Shown here: positions 17,406-61,272 of the stretch, in pieces | How the letters are laid out: every line of letters starts with the position of its first letter | How positions within the stretch are numbered: position 1 is the first letter of the stretch | Assembly: GCF_040802235.1 (NCBI RefSeq) | Contig: NC_133161.1 | Span: forward strand, 148,605,121 to 148,669,120 | Source of the DNA: Manis javanica | Lineage: Eukaryota > Chordata > Mammalia > Pholidota > Manidae | DNA: 64,000 bases | Reading direction: 5' to 3' | The notes under the pieces: model-generated | Databases searched by the model: none | The model's input: only the letters and a program-made list of their open reading frames with translations | Told to the model about the DNA's origin: nothing | Made by a program: the position numbers and the translations under genes

Positions 17406-17822
17406 AGACCTCATGCTGAGTTATCATTGCTGTTGGCAGAGAGCCAGTTTGCCTTCGATCTAAAAACAAGATTGAGAGAGATGCACGGAACGCCAAAGTG
17501 CCCTGTTCAGAGGAGTGTCAGTGGGGACACTGAGGCCGGGGACACAGGCACACAGAGCGACGCCAGGGGATGCGCGGGCTTCTCCTGATCTGAGACAGCA
17601 TGTTTCAGAGCTAACGAGGGGCAGGCAGGAGGTGGAGGTCTTGAGCGCAAGTGCTCTGGGAAGAGTGGAGGCCCTGCGGGGGCTGCGGAGAGCTGGCTTT
17701 GGGAGCAGCGGTGCGAGTGCGCAGGCGTCTTGGGAATGGCGCTGGCTCCCCTGGGCCCTGAAGTCCTCCCACCCCATCCTCACCAGGGTCTTCATGCCCC
17801 TGCCCTGCTGGGCCACACCCCC

Positions 17823-18121
17823 TCAGGAACACTGCCAGATGGACCAGAGGGCGACCAGCGTGGCACCATAGACCAGCACCACCAGCAGGTAGATGCGGAA
17901 GAGCAGCCTGTCCAGCGCAGAGCCCACGCGCAGCCAGTCCCGGGCCACCTCGCGGCCCTCCTCCCGCCTCTCCAGGAGGTGCCTGACGGAGGACAGCTCC
18001 TGCAGCACTGCGCACGTGGCCAGCGAGGCCTCCCGGGGCGCGGGCGGGGGGCTGCCCCTGCCCCTCGGGGTCCCCTCCGAGTCCTGAGGTCCTCCCCGAG
18101 GGCTGCAGCGGTTCCCCATGT
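17823..18121 (-). CDS. HTR3A: HTR3A exon 9 (coding part): end of M3-M4 loop, MA helix, M4, stop
   Basis: The acceptor is a pyrimidine-rich tract ending cttcttccag just above 18121. The exon encodes DMGNRCSP..., the amphipathic MA helix containing RREEGREVARDWLRVG, and M4 (LLFRIYLLVVLVYG), ending IWQCS and TGA at 17823-17825. The three MA arginines known to depress single-channel conductance in human 5-HT3A (R432, R436, R440) are all kept. Confidence 0.96.
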
Positions 18122-21100: not shown

Positions 21101-24100
21101 AAATCGGAATAGAAGTGGGGGCTGCTGCTCGCAGTGGGGTGCTGTCACCCTCCGTAGACCTTAGTGGCTCCTGGCATCATGCGCCCTTTGTGCCAGACAC
21201 TGCCCTGGGGTCTGACGGCAGACCAGAAATCATGTTCCTGCCCTAGTTTCTACCTGCTAGGGGAGCAGACACAAGCACTCACAAGCTCAGGAGGAGTGGG
21301 AGAGTGGGTCGCTGTGAAATGGGCAGCGGGGGTACCCAGTCTGGGGACGAGGGATTCCACTATGACACGGGTGCTGCGAGGAGTCAGCCACACTGGGGGA
21401 GGCGGGAGGAGGGGGCAGGAAGGGGAGGACGGAGGGTGGGGGCAGCACAGGGAGGAGGAGGGGCCCAGGTGGCCCGAGGGAGGAAGCAGCGGGGGGTGCA
21501 GGCGAAGGACAGGGGCTTTGGGGCTGGAAAGAAGGCAGCTGGAGAGCCACTGAGGCTTTTAAACAGAGAGTGACATGATCAGATTTGCATTTTAATGAGA
21601 CAAACTGCTTGTTTGCTGTGAGGAGCATGATTTTGAAGGGACAAGAATGAATGAGGGGGATGGGCTGGAAGGCTGCTAAGAGCCCTGGGTGAGAGATGGG
21701 GCAGCAGGCCTTAGGGGAGGGGGCATGGTGGCGAGGAGAAGCTGTGGGTTGGAGAGACAGTGCCGGAGGGGGCTTGTGGAACAGGCCCTGACCTGGCCTT
21801 CCTGGGGGCCTAGGGGTCAGTTTGCGCTGTGTCCTTGCCTTACGAAAGTGGAGGGTGGCTGTGAGGGCCCCAGTGGGGCGTGAGGAGACAGGCCCAGGGG
21901 CATTCAGGGAGGAAGTGGGAATACATGGGGTGAAGGAGCGCACACCCTAGGGTGTGGTCTCCATTTGGGTGTCTCAGGGACCGCCGCCCTGCACCCAGGC
22001 CCTGAGGCCCAGGGACTCACTTGTGTGCAGCCAGCTGGTGAAGGTCAGGGAGCAGTTCTGAACGTCGAAGGGGAAGTTGTAGATGTCCAGGCTGCAGGCG
22101 GTCACCACGTGGAGGGGCTTGTAGTTCTGCACCTCACCATGATGCCGGACATAGACGTAGGGGATGTTTGGAGACTTGCCCACATCCACGCTGGCCGGGG
22201 AAAGGGCTTCATTTGCCTGGAGACTGGGAGCCGTGACCTCTACCCACGCTTCACTCTGCTCAGCAATACTACTGCCCGCTTAAAAATGCAACTGTCCCTC
22301 ACTCGGCTATTACATGGTATAACTTCATTCACTGGCTCCTTTTCCCCTAGAAGGGACCCTTGGACCAAGAAGTGGAGAGTTTCAACATCAGGCATAGAGA
22401 AAGAGAAGTTTTTTAAAAGAAAGACAATGGGGAGCTGGGGCCCAAGCCAGCTTTCTCTGCCGCTCTGCGAGTCTTGGGGGGATGTCCCGAGGGCACAGCA
22501 GTGACCATGCACCCCGGCCCGGCCACCCAGCGTCTGATGGCAGTACTCACAACTCGTTGATGAGAATGTCGGGGACCCAGATGCTGTCCGTGGGGATGGA
22601 CAGCTTGGTGATGTTGTCAAAGTCTCCCGGGTCCCACTGGAGGAACTCATCGGTCCAGTACTGGGGGAGGAGCAGGCACGGTCATGGGCGGCCCGCTCCA
22701 ACTCGGGCTGGGTCTGCAGAACTGAGGCTGAGCCCCCCGGCTCAGTGCCCGGGGTACAGGCGGGCATCTTCTCGGAATCTGGGTGTTGGTGGCACCGATC
22801 CCTCGGCAGCACCAGGGGGTCCCCACCTCTGTCCTCACACGCTGCCTACATGCATGCACCGACAAGGGCAGCCTCTCTGGGACGGCATTCACACGTCTCT
22901 GCGCACTGAGGGGCTCAGACAAACAGCTGCTTGTGCCTTGGTCTGCCCGCATGTAGGAGGTGCTGACGTGGGCCCACAGGGTAGGTGGCCATTGTGAGGC
23001 TGTGAGCAGTGCACCCCCCCACCGTCCTGCCCTATGACAGGTCTCCGGGGCAGGCCTCATGGCGCTGCCTCCTCCCTTAAGGTTCATCAGTAGGGCCCCG
23101 CTGCACTTAGGACGAGCGAGCCTCACCTCATGGCCCATAAAGGCTGATTCAGTCCTGCCTGCACCTCTCTGGCTTCCCTCTGGCCTCCCTGGCTTCACCA
23201 TGCCTCCCTGCAGATCCTTCACCATAGCCCCTGGACATCTCTGCACACCCTCCTCTCTGCGCACCCTGCCCTCCCTCTGCGCACCCTGCTCTCTCTCCCA
23301 CACCGCCATCCTTGCCTTCTTTGCTGGGAGTCTTCCCCAGCCTTGCAGGCCCAGCCAAGGCATCTGCGAGCTCCCTTCTCTAGGAACCTTCTGGGGCTCC
23401 CCTCCCCCGCTGGACTTTTCATGCCTCCTCTGTGTTCCCACAGCTGGCATCTTGTCCTTACCACACGGAGTGGCTTACCACATCTGCCTGACTGTGGGCA
23501 GGGCCTGAGTCTAGTTGGCGTCTCTAGTTCTGGCCCCTAGCACAGCCGCTGGTACATAGTAGACTGGGGCTCCCAGAAAGGAGCTCGGGGCCACTGGTGC
23601 TTGCCTGGGCCCCTTCCCTTGAGGCAGGGTGTGCTGTGCACTAGGAACCTCTCTAAGGCAGAAAGGGGCCACACGCTGCAGCCGGAGGAAGGTGCTCATG
23701 AGGGGCACTTAACATAGACCCACACATGCCACGTGCATCCCCAGAGCCCCTCTCAGTTTGACCTCATAACCTACCCCCATCCTAACCCCCTCTCCTCAGC
23801 CACTTTGGGTTCCCCTTCTGCCCCAACATCTTCCCCAGCCTCAGAGGCTGCAGGGCAGGTCCATCTGTGGACAGCAGCCCCCACCCCCCCGTTTGCCAGA
23901 TGTCCCCGGCCAGCTCCAACCCTGAAGTGCTGCCAGTGCCTGACCGGTACCCGTCAGAATCTGGAAGGGTGGGGAGGTGGCCAAGACTGTGAGGGCTCAG
24001 TGGATGGAGTTATCCTGTTATCGCCCTTGGTTCTCATCCAACTTGGCTTAATGGAAGGAAGAGCTTTCCAGCAATTAAAGCTGTTTGCAAGTGAGGTGGC

Positions 24101-27100
24101 TGCCTTCTGAGCTCCCAGTCACTGGAGGTATTTGATCCACAGACGTTAGGAAAGCACTTGTTGAGATGCTGAGAGAAACCTCAGAAAACAGAGGCATTCG
24201 GAGAACTTTCCATCCACTGATACACAAGCTTTCTTTTGTACCCTGTCTTGAGATCTGCAGAGTCCAAACCCCTGGACCTCTCAGTAAACCTCTGAACCTC
24301 CCCTGCTTCCCTCAGCAAGAGGCCTGACCCTCTGGGGTGGAGAAGTCCTTCCTGGGAGGGTACAGCCCAGGCCCAGGCCCAGGAAACAGAAGGGCGCAGG
24401 CTGGTCTGCTCACCTGCCGGTACCAGATGTAGGTGGTCAGTACCTGATTCTTCTCGTCCTGTGAAAGGAAAGGAAGCTCAATGTGGGTGGCCCTGCAGGC
24501 TGGGGTCCCGCCACGCACAGACCAACCCCAGAAGGAGCAGCTGCTTCCTCGGGAAGGGATTGTGGAGAAGAGAGGCAGGGGAAAGAGGCCAGGCAGGAAG
24601 ACTTGCTGTTTTACTAGGACACAACTAGAGAGAAATGCAATAATTTCTTCTTTAACTTCAATATATATATACATGTTTAATTATATCTACCTTCTATTAC
24701 CTTCTATTATGTTGTTTATGCACATTATATATGCCTATTATGTTACAGATATTTTGCATACATACTTCACATCACAATAGAAGGCATATGTAACAATATC
24801 ATACCCGCTCTCTCTATATATATTTCCATATGCATATATATCTGTATCCCTACATCTGTCTCTTGTGCTGGTATGAAGTGAAGAGGTACAAAACCACACA
24901 GAATGGAAAATTCATCCCTCTCCCTCCCTCCCTCTGATCCCAGTTTCTCTTTCCAGAACAGCCACACGGATCACAGCAGTGGCCAGGAAGCTGGCAGCAC
25001 GCACTGCATCCCTGCCTCTTGTTTCTCTTTGCACAGTGTCCGCCCCCCTCTGCTGGGCAGTGCACCCCACCAGCTACAGTAACCGGGGAAGGAATGGATT
25101 AGTTAATTGATGGATGATTAGTGCTTCACCAACCACTTAGGAATACCTGCCATCTACCAGGAGCCCGTGTGAGACACCCACAGCACGGAGATGAGCAGGA
25201 CGGTGTGAACCCTCACCTGGCTTCCACAAGGAGACCGCCACGCAGTGACAGGTGAGGAGCCACATGCACCCGGAGGGATGTGGGAGAGGCAGCCACCCAG
25301 GTGACCCCAGGTTTTTGGTCTGGGTAGCCGGCAGCTGGCGGGTGCTGCAGTCTGTCTGAGCTGAGACACTGGACCCCAGGTACTGGGGTACTTGAATGCC
25401 CACCGGGGGTGGGGGGGTGACTCGGTGTCATGTGGTCTCCTGCCCCGGGACCCCGGAGCTGCGCAGGCTGGGGTTGAGTGCTCACCACGCTGAGGATGGC
25501 GTAAACAATGACGTCAATGGACACGGTGGTGGGTCTCCTCCAGTCCCGCACAGGTCGCACGCCCTTGTTGTAGCCGGCCAGGAGGTAGTCTGACAGCCTC
25601 AGCAGGGCGGGCCTGGTGCTGTGGGTCCAGAGGCCCCCGTGGTGCCTGGCTGGGAAGCACAGTTCGAAGTGGACCTACAGGTCTGAGTCTTCCCTGGCTC
25701 TGCCGCTGAGCTTTGGAAGCTGTTCAAAGGAAAGTGTCCCCACCGTCCACTCAGTCCCCGGATGTCCCCACAAGCTGAAAGTCCCATCGCTGGAGCACTT
25801 TGCCTGGAGAGATTCCTGCTAAAGTTCAAAGCTATTGTCCCATGAAGTCACCTGCACACTCATGTGAAAGAAGGAGCTGGGTGGTAAAAGCAGGTGGCAT
25901 GGGACAGGTGAGCCTCAGGCAGGCCAAGGGCTGAGAAAGGTGAGAGTCAGTACCTGCCTGGGGCAGGTGGGCCTGTGGGGCCCTGGAGAGGGGCTCCGAG
26001 GAATGAAAGGAAGGGTGGCCCTGGGTGTGTGATTCTGGAAGGTGAGAGGGATGCAAGAAAAGGTGGCCCCAAGTGTACAATTTCTCAGCACTATGGTCTG
26101 CATGAGCTTTGCTTCAGCGAAGGTCAGATCTCACATCTGCACAGCTCCTCACGGCCTCTGTGGCCCCAGCCTGCAGTGACAAGGGCGGTGGGCACCAGGG
26201 CAAAGGGGCACTCCCTCTCCCTCCTGCAGACCAGCCCCCAGACAGCCTCTCTTGGGGACCCCCATGCAAACTGCCAAGGGAGCGTTTGCCAGGCCTCCCT
26301 GTCAGCACTGCTCTCCGGGCCCATCTGACAAGGTTGGCAGTGAGGCATGGAGGAAGCAGGGGAGAGCAGACTGCTCCCCGAACGGGAGGCCAGCAAGGAA
26401 GGGCGAGGGACGAGAACGTCCAGGCCACCCAGGGGGTGTCGCGTGCACTTCGGTCATCTCTCTGGGCAGCAGTAGAGCACCTCCAGGAAGGTGCCGAGAA
26501 ATATGAAGGTGGGAGGCATAGGGTGGGAAAGGGGGACTCCTAGAGCTGCAGGGTACAGGCTGCAGGCACGCGGGGACTGGCGGGTGAGGCCAGGGTCTGT
26601 CCCAGACCAGGTGCCAGCAGGCGTGGCCTTCTCAAAACAAGACCGCCTCTCCGCTCGTCCTGTCTACCAAGCATGTAGCCTGTATAGCAAATTGGCACTG
26701 TGGTTCCCCGACCTGCCCCAGCCGCAGGTCACTGATAAACTTTCAGCTCCCTCAGAAAGATAGAGAAGAGCAGAGAGGGAAGACACGTGACTATTTATTG
26801 AGTGTCTCCTTTGGAATAATATTGACAATCAACATATTCTTTATCTCAATCTTAGCACAGTCCATTGGGTGACTGTCACGATAGCCCATTTCACAGAGAA
26901 CGATCCCCAAGGCTCAGAAAGGTGAGCCTTGCAAGTAGAGGACCCGCTACTCAGACCCACATCCCTGTGTCTTCATGAAACCAAACCCTATTGTGTGGGC
27001 ATCTGAGCAGTTTGGAGAGAATGGGAATGGGCCCCACAGGCCTCGGAGCCAGGGGCCACTGCTGGGAGGGGCAGAGCCTGGCCTCAGCTGAGAAGCCCCA

Positions 27101-43106: not shown

Positions 43107-43342
43107 TCACGAGCGGCTCCACAGCACCCAGAGGGAGCACAGGGTGACGGCGTAGAGCCCCAGCACCACCAGGTAGCCTCGGAAGAGCAGGCGGTCGAAG
43201 TGCTCCAGGAGGGCCAGCCACCCCACCTCTCGTCGGTGGGCCTGGTCTCGGGTTTGGAAGTAGCTGCTGATGGATCTGAGCTGGGGCCAGGCTTCCTCCA
43301 GGGTCCCCGATGGGTCCTGGTGCTCCTGAGAGAGGTGGGACT
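43107..43342 (-). CDS. HTR3B: HTR3B exon 9: cytoplasmic MA helix, M4, stop
   Basis: Acceptor cccacacag above 43342. It encodes ESHLSQEHQDPSGTLEEAW, PQLRSISSYFQTRDQAHRRE, VGWLALLEHFDRLLFRGYL, VVLGLYAVTLCSLWVLWSRS and stop. The MA helix has R, H and V where human 5-HT3B has Q395, D399 and A403. Confidence 0.96.
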
Positions 43343-46300
43343 CTGTGTGGGAGAAGAACACATTGCACGTGAGCCGGGGCTACCCACGGCATTGGTGGCC
43401 TCATCCTGCAAGGAAGCTGCGGACAAAACTGGGCAGCGGGCTGGGCACGGGCTGCCCGCCTGCTGAGGGGAGGCACCGCCGTGCCGAGGGAGCCCTGGAG
43501 GGCAGAGCGGAGCTGGGGGAAGATGGGTCTGGGAGAGTTTCTGAGCCAGGGTCCAGCCCACACTGACTTGGTTAGGGGCTACATGATTCTTTCTTTAAAA
43601 AAATTGAGACATAATTGATATATAACATTACCTACTTTCAGGGGTGCAGTGTAATAATTAGATGATCACCACGCATAGTCCCACTTTTATTTTGTGATGA
43701 GATACACTGTGGGATACACTCCCTTAGCCACTTCTGGGAATTGTAATCACAGGGAACACTCCACAAGTCCGCGTGTCACCCTTGCACGGGGCTGTGCTAG
43801 CCTCGGTGCTGTTGCACAGTCAGCATTCATGCTGCCTGTGTGAGTGCTGGGAGGACTTACATGCTGTTCCCCTCAGCGACCGGAACCCAGATGCATGCAG
43901 ACCGCGTGAGGGCACGCACCAGCACTCTTCCAGAGCCAGGGGCTCCTTCACTTTAGGGAACTGGTTGAAACCAGAGATAAAACAAACTAAGCTAGATGAG
44001 GGCCTGGCCTCCGAGTTAAAATGAGGCTTTCGGGAAAGCCAGCAGAAGGCGGCCATCAGCCTCCAGAGATGAAATCTAAAATGCAGCACAGAGGTGAGGA
44101 AGCAGATGCTTCCAGTTTCTACACTGCCACACACATGGCCTGGTGCCCCCCCAAAGGGCGCTGGTGCTCAGCAGGATGGGGAAGGGACCTCAGGGCTGCT
44201 CACAAACCTGTTACCCCAGTGAGCTGGGCCCCGGGACCCATCCTGGGCCTGTCAGAATCGGTGTGCCCTCGAAGACACCAGAGGGCCCACTCCTGCCCGC
44301 TGCCCTGCCCATCGTGGAGGAATCTGACCAACAGGATGGTTTCCGACAGGCTGAGAACCAAGAAGGCCATGCAGACTGCGAAGAAGACGCCTGAGGAAAG
44401 AAGCGGAGCAGGTGGCGTTAGCGGGTCTGTGGGGACTCTCCTGCCCCTGACCTGAAATGCAGCATCAGACCTTTGACAGCAATGATGCATGAGGGACGCC
44501 TGGTGCCCAGCGGCTGCTCACCGATCAGAGGGGTGTGCACTGAGCTCCTCGGCATCTTGGCAGACACGTTGACCCTGAACACGGTGTAGCCCACCAGCAC
44601 GCTGGTCTTGAACACAATCCTGGCGCGGCAGGTGGGTGGTAGGAAGAAGCTCCCCAAGTCCACGAGCATCAAGAAGACGCTGGGGATCAGCAGGCTCACG
44701 ACATAGTCCAGTGGGCGCCGGCGAATCACCACCTGGCCGGGCACAAGGAATCGGTTTGGAAAGAGGGTTTAAGCTGATGATTAATGTTCAGCCAAACCCA
44801 CAGCCAAGAACACTGCCCGAAGTTCCAACGTTTTTGCATCATGTGAAAAGCCTGTGCGGTTTGGAAATAAAAGATTATTTTGTGGTTCAGAAAAGAAAAA
44901 AATCCTTTAATTTTATTCTTTAATTATTAATACTAATAATTTAATATTGATCAGCTAATATTAATATTTATAACTAGAAGCAGCTGCAGCTACCATCAGT
45001 TCACCGCTTGCCGTGTGCCTGGCGCTGGACTGCGCTTCATATGCTTTGCTCGGTCCTCACACCTGACGGCTGGATATTAGCTCCATCTCACAAGGAAACC
45101 AAGGTTCATACAGATTAAACTGCATTTCCAAACTCACATGACCAGTGAATGAGAAACGGTTTTAAAACCAGGTCAGACACCAAAATCTTCCTTCTGACAC
45201 CGCTTACTTTGCAATGCACTGTATCGTTTTGCATGAGATGTGATTTTTTTAATCCTTGCCGTGAGCTTGTGGGCAGTAGTGTCCCCACTTCATAGATTTT
45301 TAAACATAAAGCTCAGCTCCTCCAGTAAGTTGAGGGAAGGGCAGGGTTGGGGTGTGCCCCCACGTCTGCCCCAAGCCCCGTATCCTCTTCCACACGGCGT
45401 GGCTGCAACCCTTAATCTGAACGGCCCTCTGAGCGGAGTTCCAGGCTCTTCGTCCTCTCCTCTGCCTCCTTCTCCGGAAGAGAGTCACAGAAATGAGCAG
45501 AGGTGGAGGCCAGGGGTGGAGCAGACGGTGGTGGGAGGGGCCTTCTGGGTGAGGCAGGGCCTCACCTTGCCAAAGAGAGCAGGGGCTCCCGACCCCTTGG
45601 GTCTGAGAGTATACCCCAACTCCAATGCCGTGGGGCCTGGGGGCCAGAGCCACCTGCGGGATTGCAGTCTGGCTGTCATCTTTCACATTAAACATCACCG
45701 GCTGCAGGTAGCTAAGCCAGCGCGACACTCACGCTTTACACTGATCTGGTTGACACACACTTCCACCCAAGTGCGGTCGGCGAGAAAACCACCACCAGAG
45801 AGAGCTGGCATCAGCCTGCACCTGCCCGGCTCCGTGCATCACGCTGTGACCCAGACGGCTGGGGAGGGGAGGCAGTGAGAGGGGAGCCAAGGGGTCAGAC
45901 CCCAGGGCCTGTGCTGTGGGCCAGCCTGGGCTCTGGGTGACCCAGCCCTGTGGGGTGGCAGGGCTGCCCAGCCTGCTGTCTCTGGAGGGTCCAGATGGAA
46001 AGGCCCCCCTAGAGACCTCATGGCAGATGCTACTGAAGAGGATGGGATACCGTCCAGTGACGAATACCATCCCAGGGCACAAGCACAAGCAGGCGTGTTG
46101 GTTGAATGGAAAGAGCCCAGACTCAGAGTTGGAGTGACAGAGTCCCAGAGCCGAGCCCTCAGTCCCAAGACCCTGGTGTAGGTGATCCCAGGTGTGGGAT
46201 TTAACCCTGTCATGCCTTGATCTTCCCTTTCTGAAAAAGCAGTTTACTTCTGCTTTGCCAAACACCTTGGGTACAATTGAGATTAGCTGTTGTACTCATT

Positions 46301-49300
46301 AAATAAGGCTCTGTGTGCACAGCACGTGCTGAGACTGTTGCTCCCTACCCAGAAGCTGATGCGGAGTGGGTGTAAATCGGGCCCAGAACCAAAGGTGGGC
46401 AGTGTGGCTCCTCAGTTTTAACACGTGCACGTTCCCCTGGCTGCCAGGGGAGAGGGGCACCAGAGCCGAGAGTCTGGGAGGCATGCAGGCTTCCTGGGCA
46501 TGGGGCCAGGCTGCACAGAGCCCTGCACAAGGAAGGGCCCCACACAGGCTCCAGTGTCCTGCCGGTGTCACTTAAAAGTTCTTCATTATTTTTGGACAAG
46601 GAGCCATGCATTTCCACTTTGCACTGGGCCCTACGAGTTCCATAGTGGTGCGAGGGCAGACAGCGCCCCCCGAGACAGAAAGCCGAGGTCGCCCCTGCCT
46701 GTGCTTGGCTCACAGAATCCCACGGTGAGCTGCGCGCTCCCAGACCGTCTCGTCCTTTCTCTAGCCTTCAGCCAGGATGTTCCCATTCCTAAGACTGAAT
46801 AGGAAATACAGTTTTGGTTTTCATCAAGAGCAAACAGCCCGCCTTCTTCTTAGGTTGATTTAGGGGCAGTATTACCCACAGACTATACCAATTTTCTTCA
46901 CAAGCCCAGCGCAGCCTAAAGAAACTCCAGTTTCATCACCCAGTTTTGTTCCCACTGTCTCATTTGATCCTCAGAGCCCTTTATTCCTCTGTTCTGGAGA
47001 TGCTGAGCATGAATAGGGTGTCAGGTACCCTGAATACTGGAGGTAGAACCATTCCTAAGATGGGCCCAGCCCTTGCCCCCCACCCCACCCCATCTAATGG
47101 GATCAGGAACCAGACTCATGGGTCTGCAGATGGAGGGAGAGAGAGAGTTTGCCCCAAAATGGACCATACCCAGAGTCTATACCTGATTTAGCTGATGAGA
47201 TTCGGGGCTTTTTGAGTTTGTAATTGATGATATTTTGGTCTTAGCATTGGCATTGGAATGGGTTAAGACATTCGGGGATGCTGGAACAGGGACAATGTAT
47301 TTTGCACATGGGACGGATGTGAACTTTTTGGGGGCCATAGGACAGTGGACTCTACTAGGCTGAATAATGGCTCCAAGAATTCATGTCCTTCCTAGAAGCC
47401 CAGAACGTGACCTTTTTTGGAAACAGGATCATTGCAGGTACACTTAGTTAAGATGAGGTCCTACTGTGGCAGGTGGGCCCGTAGCCCAATGTGACCAGGG
47501 GAGACACACAGAGGAGAAAGCAGCGTGGAGATGCAGGCAGAGGTTGGAGCAACACATGTACGAGCCAAGAGATGCCCAAGACCAGGCGCTAGGAGAGGGC
47601 ATGAAATGGACCCCTGTCAGAGCCCCCAGGAGACCAAGAGCTGCCGACTCCCGGCTTTCGGAAGAACTGGCGTCTGTTGTCTGAAGCCCCCCAGGTTGTG
47701 GGACTTTGTCATGGCGGCCCCTGGGGGCTTAGACCGATTTCCCAGTACCACACAGTGGGTAGATGCCAAAGACCAGACCGGAATCTGCTTGCTATGTTTA
47801 GTTGCGTCTCAGCATCAGAGATGATTAGCACACCGATTGGGGAGTCAGATTGCCTGGGTTCAAGTCCCGGCTCCACCTGTCGCCTTGTTACCTTGGCTGA
47901 GTCACGTAGCTTCTCTGCATCCCAGATTATCCATTTTCAACAATGCCCGTACTTGGAGCACCCGCCGTATGGAGACAGGAGATTCCATACACACACTTCT
48001 AAATGCCGAGGTCCATGGCTATTGCTGTTGTGTCTCCCAGAGCAGGTTTTGAGGCCCATGACAGACGCCGGGGCTGTGCTCTGCTCATGTTTGTGTCTTC
48101 AGAGCTTGCCACTGAGCCTGGCATGTGACAAACGCTTTAAAGATTTTCACTGAGTTGTACTGGCATCTGTCAATAATGGTACTTTGAGTCCCAGTGGGGT
48201 GGGGTGTGGACTTGGCCCAAGAGGGGCTCTCTGTTGAGGTCCGCGCTCAGAGCACCACCCCTCTGCAGTGAGGCCTTCCTATGCGGGGGGAAGGCAGGCA
48301 AGACACCAGCTCAGGGGGATGCCACTCTCTGCGGCACTGTCCCTACCTGGAGCCCATCGTACCTAATGGACTAAAGGAGCTGGTGCCTTTAAATTCCACC
48401 GAAAGGAAAGCAAAAGCACTTTAGTTTCAGCCCGTGTTCTCCATTAGACACCCTTCAGGTGTTAGCAATATTATGCCACAATTTCATTATCCATTAAAGC
48501 CAGGTAATAATAAGTACACAAAGGTATTTGGAGCCTATTGATGTTAATGAAAGAGATCAATCTAATTCAGAATGTGTGTGTGGAGAGCTCCTTGGAGATG
48601 GGATGGGCCCCAAGGTCAGCCTCTCATCGCCTCCTTGACGGTAGACCCCACCAGTACTCAATTTTGCATGACTGTCTTTATGACGTAGTTGGAATTTTGA
48701 CGCCCAGACTCACGCTTCCTACAGAGGCCCATTCTCCTCCTCTCCCAAGCCCCTCCCAACATTCCCGACTCAGAAAGAATGGGGAAGTTGCTGCCATTTA
48801 AGATCCTTGCACAAGAGGAGAGTTTCTTGGGTGTAGACAATGGGCTGCACTAGAGCAGCACAAGTCCATGATCCCAGGGTTGCTGGAGGGACCCTGATAA
48901 GATTTCCAGGGCTCTAAATTAATCTCTCTCTTTCTCTCTGGGGCTCAGAGGGATCTTCTACCAAGTTTATGGGCTGCATTCAATGGCTATCTCAACAAAA
49001 TTACTCTACATGAAGCTAGAAAGGGAAAAATAATGTCAGAGAAAGAGGACAAATGAGTCATCTTTCTGTCCCTGATGCCCTCTGCAATTTTCTGGGAGTC
49101 CCCTATGGGTCTCTAACTCCTGCCCTGAAGATGGTTTTACTCATGTGAAGATGTCTGTGGGTGGCGCACTTTGATCTCCACAGCCGTCCACCCTTGTCCA
49201 TCCAGCATGAGTTCTCAAATTTTATTCCTACCTCCTCCCACTTCTACCGGTATTCTTCAAAAAAGCCCCCAGAAACAAAACACCGCCTACAGAAACAAGT

Positions 49301-52300
49301 ATCACCCTACCGTTTCTGGGATCCAGCACCCTGACAAGGTGCTGGAGGAAACCTCCCCTCCCACGGCTGCTGGGTGGGGCGCCAGGCTGCACACACACAC
49401 ACACACACATCCTTGTAGGTGGACGTGCCTGTGCCCTGGGCCCCTGTGGGATGCAGCCCAACTCCGGAGTCTCGGCAGGCGCCCTCTGACAAATGGTACG
49501 TGTCCCAGCTCTGGCCAGGATGACTGCACATTGGCAGGAACTAACGGGGCACCTGCGGCAACAGGGCACATCAGGCCCAGGGTGCGGACATATATAGAAT
49601 AGATCGCTGTCCCTCCTATCTGTCCCGCCTGTCTCCAGCCCCTGCTGGGCAGCCTGAACTGGGCCACAGTTGGTGATCGGATTAAGGGGGAGCTGGCACT
49701 TCGCCATCAGGACCTCGGCAGGTCCAGGGCTGGCATGGAACTGGGCTCTGATTTTTGCATCATTGGCCAAGGGCTGTAGAAGGACCTGTGGGTGGCTTCA
49801 GTTACTAAACTCGGGGTAGGATGTCTGTGTGGAGTAACAGGACTTGAGTCCAGCCACAGTGCTCATAGCAGCAGGGGACGCCTGGAGGCTGGGAGAGGAC
49901 GAGGAGACAGAGCAGGGATGGTCGCTGAGTCCGCTGTGTCCTTCTGACCGTGCAGTGCCCCTGGGGCTGGCTCCCTGCCCTACCGAATATGAGCTGGGAC
50001 CCCACCAGGATTCTTCCCCTGCTCTGTTCTGGAGGGCCGGGGGGAAGGCCGGCCCTGCTACATCGCCCAGCTTTGCCACCCCTGCGCCAATCTCCAGTGG
50101 AGCCATACGGTGCCCACCGCCAGCACCTCGGCATGCGCACGGTGCCCAGAGCAGAGGGGCCGCGGTCCGCAGATCCATGGGTGCCTCTTCCCTTACCTTT
50201 CATCATACTTAAAATGCACCCAGTACACAGAAACCTTTCACCACCGTTGAGAGGACAAATTAGTATTTTGGACGGAGGGTGACACGTAAGTGCAAACAGT
50301 GGGGGCCTGTGGGGAGCGTGCACTTGCACGCCCGCTGCCCACCGTACCTCCTGCCTTTGTGTGCCTCTCCCGCGCAGTGTGGGTAATGGTGTGTGCAGTG
50401 TTCTCCGCAGTGCTTGGTAGGTGACGATGTTCCACCCTCACATTTCCCTTTAATGCTCTCCATTATTTGGCTGCATTAAAAATGTTTGCGGGCTGATATC
50501 TTTAAAATTAATGAGGTGTTTACTCTTAGCCAAGAAACTCATTGAAATTAAAAAAGCTTTCTTTTCCCTCCCTTTACCTCACTAAAAACAAAGTGGACAA
50601 ACAAGTCACAATACAAGCCTCGCTAAAAACAAGTAGAACAGTCAAGAGCCGCAGCCCGCCGCCCGGGAGGCGGGAGCTGCAGTTAGCCAGCACCCAGCAT
50701 GGCACATCGGTCGGGCTCAACCCGCCTCTGTAAGAGGCCCCAGTTTAACAAGGGCTTTGCTGGAAAATTGCAGGCAGCACCATTTAGCCAGTGGAGGGGC
50801 ATCTGTGCCCTCCAAAATAGCTTATTTCACCACCACCACCCTTCTTAGCATATTATCCATTGTGACCACAGCACCTTAATCTAGTTTAAATTTTCCTTCA
50901 TTTTCAAAAGGTTTGTTTCCCAGGAGAATTCATCTCGTGTGCAATCCTGACCTGTCTGTAGTCGTTATTTTTCAATCAGATCCATTACCTGGCATGAAGG
51001 ACCCCTCTGCTCAGTACTCCCACCCCATGACCCCCAACACTAGCTGACTTTGTGCAGAAAAGCAGAGCTGAGTGTTTATGATGTGAGTCCACTGGCTGCA
51101 TGAACTTGCTGTAGACCATGAGTGAGGACAGCCTGCTGGGAGGCCAGGGAAGGAAGACTCCTGAGTGCAAAGAGCAGGCTCACAGCCCTGACCCCCACCC
51201 CGCGCCCCTGCTGTGAGCAGGGCACATACCCTGGGGCAGGTGGGTTCTCCTCGTGCCCTATTAGAGCAGCTCTTCTCTCTGACCTGGAAACCACCAGTGG
51301 TCTCCATGCACCTTGCAGGTGACTTGTTAGCTAATCCCTCAGATATTCAAGTTAGTTGGACGATGATTGTATGCATCTGCATCTAGAAATAATTGATGAT
51401 TAGCTCAGTCACAAAGAGGACAGTGATGCTGAAGTGACACTCCCCTCCCACTCTGTTGTTGTGTATGGGATTCCTTCTTTCCCTCAGGAGCACTGGCAAA
51501 GGAGGACACAGGGATGCCCTGAAAGGCTCAGGGTTTCCTGCTGCTGCCAGACTGTGGCCTCTGAAACCCATTTTCTTTATAGCCACACGTGGGGTATCTA
51601 CAGCAGGAGCCCAGGATCTGTGGCTGAGCCTCTTGTCTCTGAAACACCCGAATGCAAGTAGATGTCAGATCCCTCCGAATCACCTGCTTCTGGATGGTAA
51701 TGACGAGCATATGCAAAAAAGCAGATTCCTCAGCCCAAGAGAGAAGGCCGAGGACTGCAGAGAAGCAGGCAACAGGGACAGCAAGGGGCACAACCTACAT
51801 TATACTGAATCTGTGCAAAATCTCCAGCGTTGGTCTGCAGAATGTCATAGGCTGAGGACACAGAAAGAAGTTCCCACTCACTGTCATTCAAAAATGCCTT
51901 TTTGTCATGCTTAATGTCTTCTCTGCTCCTCAGGAAGGCCAGGTCTACATCTTCCACTGAAAACGACAGAAGCGATTGAGTTCCCTACAGAGCGAGGCAC
52001 CAGTGTCAACCAGTCCCAGCCCCCCAGCTCCCAGTTCAAGTCCTGCCTCTCCCTGCTGTCTCCAATGCAGTCTTACTGACATGGGGTTCGATATGACCAT
52101 CTTGAACCAGGAGCAGGGGAGTGGAATAAAATCTTTCTAGCCGTAAAAGAAATCAACTCTGAGTTTAGGGTTTGCATCCCACTGTCCGTGGGAGGGTGGG
52201 GCTGGCCCTGACTTTGATGACATTCTCAGTGGTGTGGAGGCCTCGTACTGTATTCCACACCAAGAGCAGCAATAGGAAGGTCAATCCTGTGCAAGAATAA

Positions 52301-53475
52301 AGCAGACACGGAGGACAGCAGAACGTGACTTCACCTGTGTGCCAAACCCAGCTCAAGCACATTTTCCCATGAGCCAACTGTACCTCTCATGGTTTACCTG
52401 TGTGCAGAATGCTCCTGAAGGTGAGGCTGCAGTTCTGGATATCAAATGGAAAGGTGTATGTCTCTAAACTGCATGCGGAGACCACCTGGATGGGCTTAGA
52501 GTTCTTAATGGTCCCAGATGAGTTCACATAAACATAGGGAAGGTCGGGTGACCTTTCACTGTCCACACTGCACGAAACACAAGAGACCTGGCTGTTGTTG
52601 GGAGGGCGTCAGTCATTTCACCACATAAACAGAACCGAGTATGAGCTGGAAGTGACCATGACACCCTGGGAGGGCCAAAGACAGAATCCCATGTCCCATG
52701 AGACAGCTCATCCTGGCAAAGATGGCTCAGCAGTGACAGTCTCGTAAGTTAACTCACTTGCGCTGTCATGACACAGACATGATCTAAGAGTGACCTCAAG
52801 CATTAGTAATAAAATCTGTATTTCAAATGACATCAAATCACAGCACTTCTAACCTGAATATTCCTAACAATAGGCTCCTTTTTAAGTTGAGAGACAAAAA
52901 AAAAAAAAATAGCAACAATGACTGAAAGTAAGTAGCAACTGGCCCGACTATCCTGAGCAGACTGAATCCCCCAGAAACACAGCCCAGCATACTTACAACT
53001 CATTAATGATGATATCAGGAGCCCAGATGGCACTTAGAGGTAGGGAGATCTCTCTAATCTCATCAAACATGCTGGGGTTCCAGGACAAGAACCCATCATC
53101 CCAAACCTGCCAGCGGAAGCCGAAAAGGAAACTTATCAAAAAGGGGTTAAGTCACCAAAGAACTGGAGAGGGATTTGGATGACTGACTCAATTGATCAGC
53201 CTGCCAGAACTATCTGACAGGGGAGAGGACTTCCCATCCAACTCCTGAAGATGGTGCTCCAACCAGAAACCATGTCCATGCATATTACATGGGTTCTAAT
53301 ACATTGGATCTGCCGCAGATCTAAGGAATCACAAACACAAAGATGATATCTAGCCTTAAAATGATTATGCTTTGCAACAGATGGAGGTCAGGAAGGGCCC
53401 ACGTGCATGGAAGGAGACGTGGTCACTCACCTCATGGTACCATACACTTGTCTTCAATTTTTGATTCTGTGCATC
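43107..53475 (-). CDS. HTR3B: 5-hydroxytryptamine receptor 3B, exons 3-9 (5' end outside window)
   Basis: Accessory subunit of the 5-HT3 receptor channel; it assembles with 5-HT3A and raises conductance. Exons in the window on the minus strand: 53475-53431, 53106-52997, 52567-52398, 51956-51799, 44732-44522, 44390-44208, 43342-43107. They sum to 1113 bp, 370 residues plus stop, exactly the length of human 5-HT3B after exon 2 as I recall it. Features: DAQNQKLKTSVWYHE; Cys-loop CSLETYTFPFDIQNC; EWELLSVSSAYDIL; M1 RRRPLDYVVSLLIP; M2 VLVGYTVFRVNVS (the 3B-type pore lining); M3 VCMAFLVLSLSETI; M4 YLVVLGLYAVTLCSLW. Exons 1 and 2 (signal peptide and N-terminus) were not found up to 64000. The MA-helix triad differs from human (see findings). 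Confidence 0.96.
43343..44207 (-). other. HTR3B intron 8
   Basis: 865-bp intron. About 43580-43700 (ttgagacataattgatatat / aacattacctactttcaggg) resembles an L1 3' UTR block common in laurasiatherian genomes. No gene is supported. Confidence 0.6.
44208..44390 (-). CDS. HTR3B: HTR3B exon 8: M3 and start of cytoplasmic loop
   Basis: 183 bp encoding VFFAVCMAFLVLSLSETILL, VRFLHDGQGSGQEWALWCLR and GHTDSDRPRMGPGAQLTGVT. Acceptor ttcctcag above 44390. The donor reads GTTTGT, weaker than GTAAG/GTGAG, but it is placed exactly where the human protein continues (GVT/ES) and keeps the frame into exon 9. Confidence 0.93.
44522..44732 (-). CDS. HTR3B: HTR3B exon 7: M1 and M2
   Basis: 211 bp encoding VVIRRRPLDYVVSLLIPSVF, LMLVDLGSFFLPPTCRAR, IVFKTSVLVGYTVFRVNVSA and KMPRSSVHTPLIG. 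Acceptor ggccag, donor gtgagc. M2 keeps the 3B-specific polar residues. Confidence 0.97.
44985..45170. repeat. MIR-like element
   Basis: cgcttgccgtgtgcctggcg, catatgctttgctcggtcct, ctccatctcacaaggaaacc, ctcacatgaccagtgaatga, in MIR order. Confidence 0.65.
47352..47733 (+). mobile_element. MLT1-like MaLR LTR in HTR3B intron 6
   Basis: Starts ctactaggctgaataatggc and contains tggaaacaggatcattgcag, gttaagatgaggtcctactg, agcccaatgtgaccagggga, gaggttggagcaacacatgt and the terminal ccaggttgtgggactttgtc atggcggcccctggggg block. The order is that of a complete but old LTR. Orientation is antisense to HTR3B. Confidence 0.7.
47830..47960 (+). repeat. MIR SINE
   Basis: ggggagtcagattgcctggg, ttcaagtcccggctccacct, ttaccttggctgagtcacgt, agcttctctgcatcccagat. 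A clear MIR core. Confidence 0.75.
49390..49409. repeat. (CA)10 microsatellite
   Basis: Ten CA units in HTR3B intron 6. It explains the Thr-His and Val-Cys repeats in the local open frames, which are not coding. Confidence 0.95.
51799..51956 (-). CDS. HTR3B: HTR3B exon 6: loops F and C
   Basis: 158 bp encoding VEDVDLAFLRSREDIKHDKK, AFLNDSEWELLSVSSAYD and ILQTNAGDFAQIQYN. Contains the NDS sequon. Acceptor gttttcag, donor gtaggt. Confidence 0.97.
52398..52567 (-). CDS. HTR3B: HTR3B exon 5: Cys-loop
   Basis: 170 bp encoding VDSERSPDLPYVYVNSSG, TIKNSKPIQVVSACSLET, YTFPFDIQNCSLTFRSILHT. Cys-loop spacing of 13 residues is kept and NSS and NCS sequons are present. Acceptor cgtgcag, donor gtaaac. 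Confidence 0.97.
52896..52909. repeat. Poly-A run (14 A)
   Basis: A 14-base adenine run in HTR3B intron 4. On the coding strand it is a T tract about 100 bp after the exon 4 donor; the polypyrimidine tract for exon 5 lies elsewhere. Confidence 0.9.
52997..53106 (-). CDS. HTR3B: HTR3B exon 4
   Basis: 110 bp encoding VWDDGFLSWNPSMFDEIR, EISLPLSAIWAPDIIINEF. The human sequence, as I recall it, reads VWNDEF; here the Glu of that motif is Gly and NSS has become NPS, which removes a glycosylation sequon. Acceptor gctggcag, donor gtaagt. Confidence 0.96.
53431..53475 (-). CDS. HTR3B: HTR3B exon 3 (45 bp)
   Basis: Encodes DAQNQKLKTSVWYHE, matching human DAENQILKTSVWYQE. Acceptor ctttacag, donor gtgagt. 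This is the most upstream HTR3B exon found in the window. Confidence 0.97.
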
Positions 53476-55815: not shown

Positions 55816-56660
55816 TAAAAATTGAGCAAAGGACTTGAATAGATGTTTCTCCAAAGAAGATATACAAATGGCCAAAAAGCACATGAAAAGAGGCCCACGG
55901 CTTTAGTTACTAGGGAAATGCAGATCAAGACCATGAAGACACGTCACCCACTAGGACGGCTACAATAAAAAAGACGGAAAATAACAAGTGTTGGCAAGGA
56001 TGTAGAGAAATTAGAACTCTCATATATTGCTAGTAGGATTACAAAATGGTGCAGCCACTTTGGGAAACAGTCTGACAATTCCTCAAAATGTCAGAGTTAC
56101 CTTATGACCCAGCAATTCCACTCTTAAGTAAGTAACAAAGAAACTTGAAAATATAAGTCTACACAAGAGAACCTGTACAGGAAGGTTCATAGCAGCACTT
56201 ATAACACAATAGTCAAAATGTGAAAACAACTATGTCCATCAGCTGATGAACAGATAAATAAAATGTGGTTTATCCTTAGAGGAGAGTGTTTTTCAGTAAT
56301 AAAAAGTAATGAGATATGATGCATGTTACAACATGAATGAACCTTGGTGGTATTGTGCTACTGAAAGAATCCAGTTACAAGAGGCCATTTATTGTATGAA
56401 TCCATTTATATGGAATATCTAGAATAGGAAACCTTTAGAAATAGGAAGATTATTGTTTGCCTGCGGCTGGTGGGGCAAGGGTAGAGGGGGTGGCTAATGG
56501 TGTGGGCTTCACTTTGTTCTGAAATTAATGGTGGTCTGCACAAGAAAACCTGTAGAGTGGCACAACTCTCTGAATATGCTAAAACCACTGGATTGTAAAC
56601 TTCAAATGGATTAATTTTGTGGTTGAAATACATATTAATAAAGCTGCCCTTTAAAAAAAA
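55816..56660 (+). mobile_element. Second L1 3' fragment
   Basis: Starts again in the ORF2/3' region (ttgagcaaaggacttgaata, gatatacaaatggccaaaaa) and ends with a classical L1 tail (aaccactggattgtaaactt, caaatggattaattttgtgg, atacatattaataaagctg). It duplicates the region of the preceding L1 copy, so two elements lie head to tail. Confidence 0.82.
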
Positions 56661-58139
56661 TAGGTATTTTTAATAAAGGAAAAGGGAAGCATTTTTGAAG
56701 ATATTTCTGGGGTATTTATAAGAAGTCTGATACCAACCATTGATGAGATCTCCTTTACCTCATTTCCATTCTTTTCCATGTATAATTGATCACTAAAACC
56801 TGCATCCTTTGAAGAAAATGAGAGGACTAGAAAATCCAAGGTGAAAACGTGTGAAGTAAAATGTGTAAAACATTTCCCTGATGATTGAGGGTCAAAGCTA
56901 AGGGGTCATTTAAATAACCTTTGTATTTCTGTAATATTTATTACAATACCACATTTTAGTAAAATAAGAGAGTTTGGGGAGTTGATGGCATGAAAGCAAA
57001 TAACAACTCTGTTTTCCTCCCCAGAACAGGGTATATTAAATTAATCATCCAGCCAACTACTCAAGCACACCAAAAAATAGTCATTGTGCCTGGGGCAAGA
57101 CTACCATTTTTTTCAACCCTGGTGGGGGGTGGTAGGGAGGCACCATTGGAAAGTAGTCCATGGGGCGGCTGGTGCATCTGGAATTGTACCAGCCTCAGAC
57201 TATACAGGTATACACAGGGTGGCATTAGTTGAAAGAGAAACAATAAAATTTTTTAAGTCCCCACTTTTTGCCACCAAGAAAGAAAGTTGCTACTGAAAAA
57301 GCATTTCTAGGTATGTTGGGAAAGAAGACGGGATTGTGCACAGATATGGGTGACCCCCTCTAGTGGTCTGACAAAGGCGGATCTCAGGGAATTTGTTCTA
57401 CAGATTTTTTAGGAGCTTCAAATAGATACTGGGAAAGGCATGTTTTAAAGTGACATACAAGGTGAAAATGCTGAACCCAAAGCATTTCCCCAAGGGGCCA
57501 CGTGGGGGAGGACAGAGGGGAACCCACCCGAGACGGCTCTGCAGGGGTCCTGGCAGTTGTGAAAGGACTTCTCTTGAGAGCTCAGGGTTAGGTGGCAACA
57601 CTTCCTTCTGAGTTTTATCAGCTGGGAGATGCTGAAATAGATCACGTCTCACCCACTAAAGCAGAAAAGGCTCAGTTCTAGGCTTAGTCGCAATCAGTGA
57701 GGGTTCCCCACAAACAGGGGGAAAAAACAAGCCCCAGATGCAATCTGCATTAGTGGTAAATAGAGCTGTTCACCACTCCTTCCCAACACATGCACATTCA
57801 CATCCATGCAGTGCCCTGGCCAGTTTTTTTTATCACGGTCACGCCAAGTCATGAACGCGCGCTGTTGACTCAGTCACGTGACTGGGGAGAGGGTCGCTGT
57901 GCTGTCCGTTCATTTCACGGCTATTTTTAGTCCATCGGTTCTGACTAACTGCCATACTGATGCGTAGCCTGCTCTTCTCTTTTGCCCATTGCTTTATCGT
58001 ACCACATGTCACAGAAGAGTTAAGAATCTTTTTCTAATATATTAGGGGGGTGGCTGGGCGGATTCATCATGCAGCCCTAAAAACACAATGTCAGAAAGGA
58101 GTTTGAGGCTAAAACTGAAATCTTTTTTTGTCAAAGGGA
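56661..58139. other. Unassigned AT-rich intronic sequence
   Basis: No recognisable gene, repeat core or RNA. Upstream of the DIRS-like fossil one might expect its reverse transcriptase palm; I looked for a YxDD-type motif in the plus frames and did not find one. Confidence 0.5.
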
Positions 58140-58740
58140 ACAAGTTTCTCAATGCCAGCTGGTGAACATAATTGGTTCTCTGGTGGCATTATTCACAGCT
58201 TTTCCCTCTGTGTATCTCTCTCTCTTTTTTCTTTAGATACCTTCCATCTTGCTTGTTAAAAGCAAAGGATATTTCAGAGAATTGGAATTCATTAGTCTTC
58301 CTAACAGAGGGAGTCTATTTAGATCTAAATTGGTGGTTAGCAAATACACAGATAATTCCTGCACATTCGTATTTATCTTTCCCAGTTCCGAAGACTATAG
58401 AAACAGATGCCTCAACGTCTGGCTGGGAGGCTCTAGTCAATGGACTGGAATACAAAGGTATCTGGGATTCGGAATTGACAAAACTCAATAGAAACAAATT
58501 GGAACTCTTCACTGCTGAGTAGATTATCTCTATAATCAGATCTCCCTAAGGTACTCATAATACCCAGAAATTCTAAGACAACTGTAGTCTTTCATATAAA
58601 CAAAACAGGAGGGAAAACGTTACAAGGGAAGCGAGGTGCTGGGATGAAAGCTGGGCTGGGCTGAACGCTCTTCACTCCAAACCAAAGTTGCCAGCCGTTC
58701 AGCTGCTGGCAGATGCGTCCAGCAAGTTATCTATCCACAC
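58140..58740 (+). mobile_element. Fossil of DIRS-type retrotransposon reverse transcriptase/RNase H
   Basis: Conserved blocks of the RT end and RNase H domain of DIRS-type (tyrosine recombinase) retrotransposons occur in the right order in three frames. From 58156: QLVNIIGSLVALFTAFPSV, the RT C-terminal helix (family pattern with an IG.LV..FPAV core). From about 58318, in the 116-codon open frame ending 58522: LDLNWWLAN (family WWL..N), TIETDASTSGWEALVNG (RNase H strand with catalytic Asp and GWGA-type turn), then GIW and NKLELFTAE (family LELxA with catalytic Glu). From 58578: TTVVFHINKTGG (family DNTTAVAYINKQGG). From 58694: VQLLADASSK (family ADA.SR end). At least two frameshifts and missing sequence make it inactive. 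No YxDD motif and no tyrosine recombinase were found nearby. Ty3-type RNase H is a less good fit because it lacks the WWL and IN..GG blocks. Confidence 0.75.
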
Positions 58741-60739
58741 AGGGAGTGTCCTTGTCTGGGCAGAATCTGTGATTATCAAGTGCCTCAAGGCCAGCCCTGC
58801 CTCTGGAGTGAACTTTACAGGTCAGCCCAGCTGTCCTAAAGATAATCCCGGAACTGGGTCTCACACGGTTAATTAATTAGTTAATTCGTCAGACAGGTGT
58901 CCATCCAGTATCTCTGAAGTAAGATCACGTATTCTGCCTACTGTGGGGAACGTAAATATGAGTAAGGAAGTCCTCAAGTAGTTCATTAGTAAGTTAGGGT
59001 ATGTGACGTTCTAACGAATAACTGTGCTTGAAGATGTATACAGGCTTCAGTGGACTTACAGTGGGCAGACGTTGCTGTCAGCCTGGAGAATTGAGGAAAA
59101 TTTCTTTCAGTGGCTAAGATTTGAGGGCAGTAATATTTTGCAGATGGAGAACGAAGAGGAACACACTCAGTGGAGGGGCAGCAGAACCGGGGACACACAG
59201 GCGGGGAACCACAGCAGGCGGCGTGTCTCCACGGCAGCAAGTGCGCGCGCGACGTCAGGGTAAGGCACTGAATAGGGGTAAAACTAAAAGGATGGAATAT
59301 AAGATCTTTCCAGATTTCTGAAGGAAGGTATGCCATATCCAGTAATATGATATACCTAAGATATTCCAGTAAAAAATGAGTATATTCCACAACGGTGGAG
59401 AAAAACAGATCTTTGAAAAAATAATGGTGTTCTCTTTAACTACCACAAGGACTCTGATTTTATCTTCCTTTATTGGGGCAGAAAGAGATAAAAATTTTCA
59501 ATTTGTCACAGTTGTGCCAAGAGAGCATGTTACTATAAAGACCTTACTCTTTCTCTCTATTTATCTCCAAATGAACCTCTGAAGGAAAGTCTGAGCAATT
59601 CTACTTCACCTTAATCGACAGGAAGTTAGAAAGTAGGATGATGAGAAGAGAACCTCAAGGAGGTCTTAACTCCTGACTCAAGGGGGGTCGTACCTCTGCC
59701 CTGCGTCTTCACATGACCTGGTTCTTATCATGTGTCTTTAGCTAGATCATGCTTTTCCCGTTACACAATGCCTGATACACAACACAGCCATGATGACCCA
59801 CTGACAGCTACAGAGAGAGGCCTGGGATTTGAGCAGGTGAAGACACAGCCCCAGGGAATTGTCTCCAAAACTCTAGTTCCATTTCCAGTTAGAAGACATT
59901 TAAAGGAGTTTCCCATGGGAGCTTTGTGTAAGCCTAGGCCTTCTGGAAGGTGGGTAGGTAGTTCCTGCACTTAATTAAAGAATATTTTCTAGGATATTAG
60001 ATCTCGTACTTTTAATAGTGTGACTGAGAAAATAAAGCTAGGAAAAGTGCTAACAGGAATTTTTTTTGCGTGTATCAGTTAAACATTCCTGTTTATGAGG
60101 AAATAATGATTAGAGGTTTATCTAAGGTGGAGGATTATGCTAAAATAACTTGCATCAGACAAAAAATTTAAACTCTGTTATATCAGATAACATCAATTAT
60201 ATTTTCAGTTTCAAATTATTTTTTCATTAATTGCAATGCCTAATTCTCAGTTAAAAAGTCAGAGTCTCTGACTCATAGCATAGCACTAAGATAGTGACAT
60301 AGAAAAACACTTCCAATAAAGTAAATTAAGGGAGAATTAGTAAGTTATTTTAACAAAGTGAACTAAAATAACATGTATTATGGGGCCCATTATGTATATA
60401 AAATTGAAGACAAAAGAGGTGTGGGGACGGGGAAGCAGAAGTGGGATTTTTACTGTTGAAGGATCCATATATTTTATGTGAAGTGTAATAACGTTAATTC
60501 AGAGCACACTGTATAAAGTGGATGATGGATATGGAAATCTTAAACAATATGACAAAGATGGGTGCTAAAGAGTCAATAGAAAAACTAAAATCAAATATTT
60601 AAAAAATATTTAATTTACTTAAAGAAATGCAGGATAAGAGGAAAAGAAGAACAACAGAACACAGATGGGACAATTGGAAAACAAGTGGCAAGAGGGTATT
60701 GGTAAGCGGATGGAGCGCTTCAGTTAAAACGCACAGACT
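58741..60739. other. Unassigned AT-rich intronic sequence
   Basis: Nothing I can name. 59376-59582 has a short open frame with a poorly informative translation. The segment 59700-59960 is somewhat GC-richer and could be a decayed LTR, but no termini were found. Confidence 0.5.
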
Positions 60740-61272
60740 AACAGGTTAAAAAAAGCCATATCCCAGAATCCTACTCAGCAGCTGAAAGGAACAAGCTACT
60801 GACATGCTCAACAGCCTGGATGAAGTCGAGGGGAATTCTACTGAAGGAAAAAAGCCAGTCTCAAAGGTCACACCGCATGTTGCCACTGATACAGTGTTCT
60901 TGCCACAACACAGTTAGAGGGACAGGGAAGAGGTTCATTGGCTGTCAGTGGTCAGGGGCTGGGGGCAAACAGGAGCCATAGCAGGGAGCCTCTGGGGCTG
61001 ACCGCAGCTTGGTGTGGTCATGGAGGCTACGCAAAACCACACGTGACGAAACCACACGGAAGCACGCACACACTCACGAATGCTGGGAAAGACTGGGGAG
61101 ATCTGGATAAGCTCTGGGATGGCACCAGCATCAGTTTTCTAGTACTGATGCTATTTATGCAAGATATTAAAGACGGAAGACATTGAGTGAAGGGTGCACA
61201 GAACCTCTCGGTAAGTTTAGTTGCAACTTCCTGTAAATTTATAATTATTTCAAAATAAAAAGTTAGAAAAAA
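60740..61272 (+). mobile_element. L1 3' UTR and tail
   Basis: cactgatacagtgttcttgc, gtcaggggctgggggcaaac, tactgatgctatttatgcaa, acattgagtgaagggtgcac, and the final ataattatttcaaaataaaa are the standard 3' end of an old L1, closing in an A-rich stretch. Confidence 0.8.

Follow-up and report, generated by a model that had tools for sequence, protein, structure and literature searches.

Traces of DIRS-type elements in mammals have been described before. The human DIRS fossils reported by Frith 2022 (PMC9004415), who cites Yao and Frith 2021 for the first human report, comprise 37 that are classed as 'other pre-amniote', and a table of fossils that are older yet has five DIRS rows, which name ERC2, NFIB, MLLT3, RSU1 and WWOX. 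In that paper the patchy distribution is attributed to ancient loss of activity and conservation is read as exaptation, and there is a precedent in it for TE protein fossils that are strongly conserved without a coding role. Other reports describe no well-conserved DIRS1 copies in 37 mammals (PMC3266345) and no human DIRS trace save LAP2alpha and ZNF451 (PMC5753468). The view that DIRS-type elements are absent from mammals, which was cited in the first-pass annotation of the locus studied here, is out of date in the light of the human fossils.

Since fossils of this kind are already in print for human (PMC9004415), the copy at the HTR3B locus is a further fossil of the same sort. It resembles the human ones in being a frame-broken DIRS-type pol fragment in non-coding mammalian DNA with a strong conservation that is read as exaptation, and it differs from the five older rows in that its locus is not among the genes named there. 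The string 'HTR3' is absent from the main text of PMC9004415; the HTR3B copy may be in the supplementary list of that paper. A literature search for HTR3B together with 'retrotransposon' returned nothing relevant, which is no proof of absence. Like the LAP2alpha domains of TMPO and ZNF451 (PMC4495291), the fossil is DIRS1-like sequence kept in mammals; those domains, however, originate from ORF1 (GAG), lie in exons and are under protein selection, whereas the HTR3B fossil stems from RT/RNase H, is antisense and intronic, and gives no protein signal. With living DIRS1-like elements (squamates, newt, fish, coral and metagenomes; P0014-P0133) it shares the order of a putative RT tail, WW, TDAS..GW, LEL and IN..GG, but its best long match to them is 38.5% identical and neither a methyltransferase nor terminal repeats were seen in it.

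A set of DIRS proteins was collected with two bait stretches, giving 1292 proteins at E<=0.001 from 4178 candidates. Among the named members are proteins of snakes, a worm lizard, a newt, a fish, an acorn worm, an urchin and a coral, and many of the metagenome members have the Dam-type methyltransferase domain that is expected of DIRS elements. All of the 120 listed proteins from this set were used to build a profile, with the window (the whole 64-kb stretch of DNA that was analysed) left out, and the profile was run with hmmsearch on all 2376 stop-to-stop frames of at least 15 aa in the window. The search reported five frames at E 10, of which 58172-58519 on the plus strand was the sole significant one (42.0 bits, E 8e-12). 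The runner-up was an IN..GG piece at 58536-58661 (6.4 bits, E 0.51) and the remaining three frames had E 2.4-5.7, while the reversed window reached 2.7 bits and 39 first-order Markov simulations no more than 10.1 bits. By tblastn, 79 of the 120 proteins matched at the fossil at 1e-3 and none outside 57900-59000; the best among those listed was P0093 (38.5% identity over 58229-58516, E 6.7e-13). Over the 80 columns of the tree alignment, the best identity to a listed DIRS protein was 36%, and short pieces gave higher values. The homology of the core (58229-58519, plus strand) to DIRS-type elements is far beyond chance. In an open frame of 97 codons, this core holds the RT-RNase H junction and the N-terminal half of a DIRS-type RNase H (FFRYLPS..DLNWWLAN..TIETDASTSGW..NKLELFTAE), and its IETDASTSGWE matches 5 of the 7 letters of the DIRS-specific motif, published as ASKSGWG beside LTTDAS (PMC2685390), in keeping with a DIRS-type RNase H.

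The four strings pointed out in the first-pass annotation do lie on the plus strand at the positions given there, and the profile match bears out the DIRS type of the core: neither better matches to L1, ERV or Ty3 nor a lack of alignment was encountered. The 116-codon open frame that was said to span the RNase H is the frame 58172-58519, of which the part matching DIRS proteins is 97 codons and not 116. The length of this frame was dropped as evidence and is not special, because 127 stop-to-stop frames in the window are at least 116 aa long. Also dropped was an RNase H frame starting only at 58316; the profile aligns from 58229. Pfam RNase H models gave no match at E 10 for four window pieces or for three close relatives of the fossil (P0004, P0008 and P0002; see below), for which only unrelated models appeared, far under the cut-offs; the fossil hence lacks the Pfam RNase H match that would mark a Ty3- or ERV-type enzyme. 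These models are weak for DIRS elements too, as judged by the living proteins P0093, P0020 and P0120, which match RT_RNaseH only below the cut-off. A near alternative to the DIRS type would be the RNase H of Ngaro elements. The two best-matching proteins, P0093 and P0020, had sub-threshold matches to a Dam methyltransferase model, and a PDB scan of the window pieces found no RNase H.

Around the core, the pieces become weaker. A putative RT tail remnant (QLVNIIGSLVALFTAFPSV) lies at 58081..58233 on the plus strand; its frame differs from that of the RNase H part. A profile of the RT tail, made from the seven of the 120 DIRS proteins that reach far enough upstream, had its top match in the window at exactly this expected place, but with 8.5 bits and E 0.41; on the relatives it gave E 1.7e-4 for P0007, 0.0017 for P0004 and 0.016 for P0005 in a search of 12 sequences. 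Neither YLDD nor YIDD occurs in the six frames of the window. The next RNase H block (KVLIIPRNSKTTVVFHINKTGG), with the IN..GG motif, is found at 58515..58625 on the plus strand in the third frame, where 29 of the 120 DIRS proteins align in the right place and order (best P0097, 24.3 bits; best E 4e-4 against a 3-kb subject). Since fortuitous matches in other parts of this 3-kb stretch score equally (24.3-25.0 bits, with at most five proteins each), the support for this block comes from its place, order and number of proteins, and not from its score. The Asp of its DN motif is lost and reads as Ser, as judged by eye on the alignment. Further on, an ADASSK string at 58709..58726 (plus strand) is a possible, weak candidate for the C-terminal AD..SR motif: its spacing of 102 codons fits the median of 108 in those 92 of the 120 DIRS proteins in which the two motifs could be located, and a profile of the RNase H end did not match it. 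Of the four ordered blocks first proposed, the RNase H core is thus significant, the IN..GG block and the RT tail are in order and weak when taken alone, and ADASSK fits by spacing only.

Many of the 120 proteins extend into the methyltransferase, yet no such domain was matched after the RNase H at 1e-3, and the pieces downstream of 58625 did not rise above chance level (24.3 bits at most). The methyltransferase of the fossil appears to be lost or too decayed. No inverted repeats of at least 20 bp, and hence no terminal repeats or internal complementary region, were found at 56000-61000, as is expected of a fragment; the absence of such repeats, together with the absence of any further DIRS piece at 1e-3, indicates that the copy is a fragment. 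Downstream of the fossil, a 149-aa stop-to-stop frame is present on the minus strand at 58986-59435.

The host gene was mapped by tblastn with a human HTR3B query. HTR3B exons, which we take to be numbers 3-9, were located at 53.5-43.1 kb on the minus strand (43119-53475), with exon 3 at 53428..53475 (81% identity, E 0.004) and exon 4 at 53109-52996 (E 5.5e-16). HTR3A exons follow in tandem at 25.6-17.8 kb (17814-25623), also on the minus strand. The fossil is located upstream of HTR3B exon 3 and antisense to the gene, in agreement with its earlier placement in an HTR3B intron. That this is intron 2, as had been stated, is likely rather than shown, because the query detected neither exon 1 nor exon 2 up to 64000, the end of the window.

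A protein search with the 116-aa frame at E 10 returned just 12 close relatives (75-94% identical), all from metagenome assemblies and none with an NCBI or UniRef source. They are presumably host DNA of other mammals. These relatives are predicted proteins that were found via shared 5-residue words of the open frame, so the sample favours conserved and open copies. Eleven of the 12 also align upstream of the open-frame start, up to 57973. The poly-T tract before 58236 differs in length among the relatives, and this determines whether the RT-tail part is in or out of frame. In P0004 (57989-58519) and P0005 (58050-58519) a single open frame, 178 and 169 aa long respectively, runs through both the RT tail and the RNase H. 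Other searches gave no relative of the fossil: scans of viral_contigs and genome_contigs were negative, a TDAS..GWG DNA pattern found 16 stretches in viral_contigs of which none was DIRS-like by eye, and tblastn against plasmids gave a single chance match (E 4). A 700-residue read-through, scored on residues 349-417 alone, matched nothing at E 10 among seven longer-protein candidates.

The frame end at 58519, right after the LEL motif, is common to the window and eight of the 12 relatives, whereas living DIRS proteins continue past this point. In a tree of 69 sequences and 80 columns (P0012 was left out beforehand, and sequences not spanning the region were dropped, including three of the 12 relatives), the window and the eight spanning relatives formed one clade with support 1.0; the next node had support 0.0. 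We read the common frame end, along with the length differences of the poly-T tract, as descent of the window and its relatives from one decayed copy, and from the sequences we infer orthology and a great age of the fossil, with the proviso that there may be paralogous copies among the relatives. Horizontal transfer of a DIRS element into a mammal, with the copy confined to one lineage, had also been considered. Snake, lizard, newt and fish proteins are indeed among the listed DIRS set, and a closer DIRS protein may exist, given that 120 of the 1292 matches were listed. Nevertheless, the best long match among those listed is 38.5% identical, as opposed to 75-94% for the relatives, and the shared frame end of eight of them, in addition to the single clade, leaves a recent transfer without support; we regard this scenario as extremely improbable.

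Next to its homology, the fossil is characterised by a sharply uneven rate of change. Base changes were counted on a frame-tolerant alignment as the minimum per codon, and they represent amino-acid-changing sites only, except in P0012. For the 12 relatives, a block of 108 bp at 58238..58345 (no strand assigned) had 7 changes in 426 codons, compared to 92 in 486 codons on the upstream side (58081-58237) and 98 in 641 codons on the downstream side (58346-58519). This equals 0.016 inferred changes per codon in the block and 0.15-0.19 in its flanks, a local slowdown of about ten-fold. Without P0012 the corresponding counts were 5/391, 83/434 upstream and 94/605 downstream. No change at all was seen in 130 codons at 58247-58279, none of the 12 relatives had more than two changes in the block, and all 11 relatives that reach upstream were less changed from 58238 on than before it. 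When distinct changes were counted once and P0012 was left out, the first 36 columns (94 in total) held only 5 of the 52; scanning every 36-column run gave P 0.00045 by column shuffle, and 0 of 20,000 uniform draws were as low.

Such a pattern might also arise in neutral debris, the slow block then being due to chance or to the way in which the relatives were found. They were, after all, retrieved through shared words of the open frame, they are related to each other and thus not 12 independent sequences, neutral rates vary locally, and one relative has indels inside the block. On the other hand, a relative that had changed in the block but kept the remainder would be expected to share words as well, and none of the 12 was of this kind; furthermore, both flanks vary while the same 108 bp carries at most two changes in each relative, and the scan P value is low. 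On balance, we find neutrality unlikely.

The nature of the changes was then compared with that expected from random mutation (kappa 2). Over 94 codons, the 43 single-base changes (of 52) had a mean BLOSUM62 score of -0.91 as against an expected -0.48, and the fraction of simulations that were at least as conservative as the observed changes was 0.96. The changes were distributed 16:22:5 over codon positions 1, 2 and 3, which is near the null fractions of 0.43, 0.45 and 0.12. The conservative amino-acid replacement of a protein-coding exon was accordingly not seen over all 94 codons, a result that speaks mainly for the frame outside the block, as the block has just five distinct changes outside P0012. 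TDAS retains its Asp in 11 of 11 relatives, and the catalytic Glu of LEL is Lys in five of the nine relatives that reach this residue. In P0012 the frame is shifted within the block but the block sequence is retained, which shows that small indels are tolerated there. P0012 is also the only sequence in which synonymous sites are visible, since the relatives are known as predicted proteins: the first base is compatible in 39 of its 43 frame-1 codons, and in six of seven inside the block, and this base occupies the wobble position of the RNase H frame. Taken together, the non-conservative changes, the Glu to Lys replacement and the P0012 frameshift argue for constraint at the DNA level, and we infer that the block has been kept as DNA rather than as protein. 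The earlier proposal of an old fossil with exaptation would therefore stand in the form of a block of ~108 bp kept at the DNA level, and not in that of a protein. No RNA families were found at gathering scores, and the predicted folding of 58230-58350 was not remarkable (z -1.5 for the plus strand and 0.3 for the minus strand).

The block adjoins a polypyrimidine tract ending in AG at 58212..58236, which on the plus strand, opposite to HTR3B, resembles a splice acceptor. On a rough matrix it scored 9.34 bits, with a rank of 0.000 (to three decimals) among 9821 AG sites, and the HTR3B exon 3 acceptor scored 10.01 on the same matrix. Alternatively, this tract may be nothing more than a pyrimidine repeat. 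The minus strand has a donor-like AAG|GTATCT site at 58240, and the plus strand has another at 58458; their 1.41 bits are slightly under the weaker HTR3B donors (1.62 and 2.06) as scored on the same rough matrix. The strong acceptor-like and weak donor-like sites of the plus strand are in line with the idea that the host came to use the open frame as a protein or coding exon, as are the 97 DIRS-frame codons that are open in the window and most relatives and the near lack of amino-acid change in the block. This idea conflicts with the changes over the 94 codons, which are not conservative (those of the block alone being too few), with the frameshift of P0012 inside the block and with the replaced catalytic Glu. 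In addition, none of the relatives comes from NCBI or UniRef, none was found at E 10 among longer proteins, and the frame is antisense to HTR3B. Protein exaptation, which the first-pass annotation had raised, is very unlikely for these reasons. The block might conceivably be a spliced exon made from DIRS RNase H, either in a plus-strand antisense transcript across HTR3B (using the acceptor-like site at 58236) or as an alternative non-coding exon on the HTR3B strand that tunes the receptor mRNA (using the donor-like site at 58240), a reading that we hold to be rather doubtful.

The most satisfactory explanation, which we consider probable, is that of an old and vertically inherited DIRS fragment, antisense in an HTR3B intron, with a dead protein and a 108-bp block that the host uses as non-coding sequence. 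According to this explanation, a fragment of a DIRS-type (tyrosine-recombinase) retrotransposon with the RT end and most of the RNase H would have been inserted antisense in the HTR3B intron long ago and passed on vertically. Its protein would be dead, since three frames, with stops, are needed to read it and catalytic residues have been lost. The block has hardly changed, whereas the remainder of the fossil has drifted, which makes it most likely that the host uses it as a non-coding DNA or RNA sequence; most simply, it would act as a cis-regulatory element of HTR3B or HTR3A.

With this locus, the known tyrosine-recombinase retrotransposon fossils of mammals are joined by a recognisable DIRS copy that contains a constrained block with sharp boundaries. 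The block is a short candidate regulatory element in the HTR3A/HTR3B serotonin-receptor locus, and the case suggests that constraint at the DNA level can preserve an open frame in an old fossil as a by-product.
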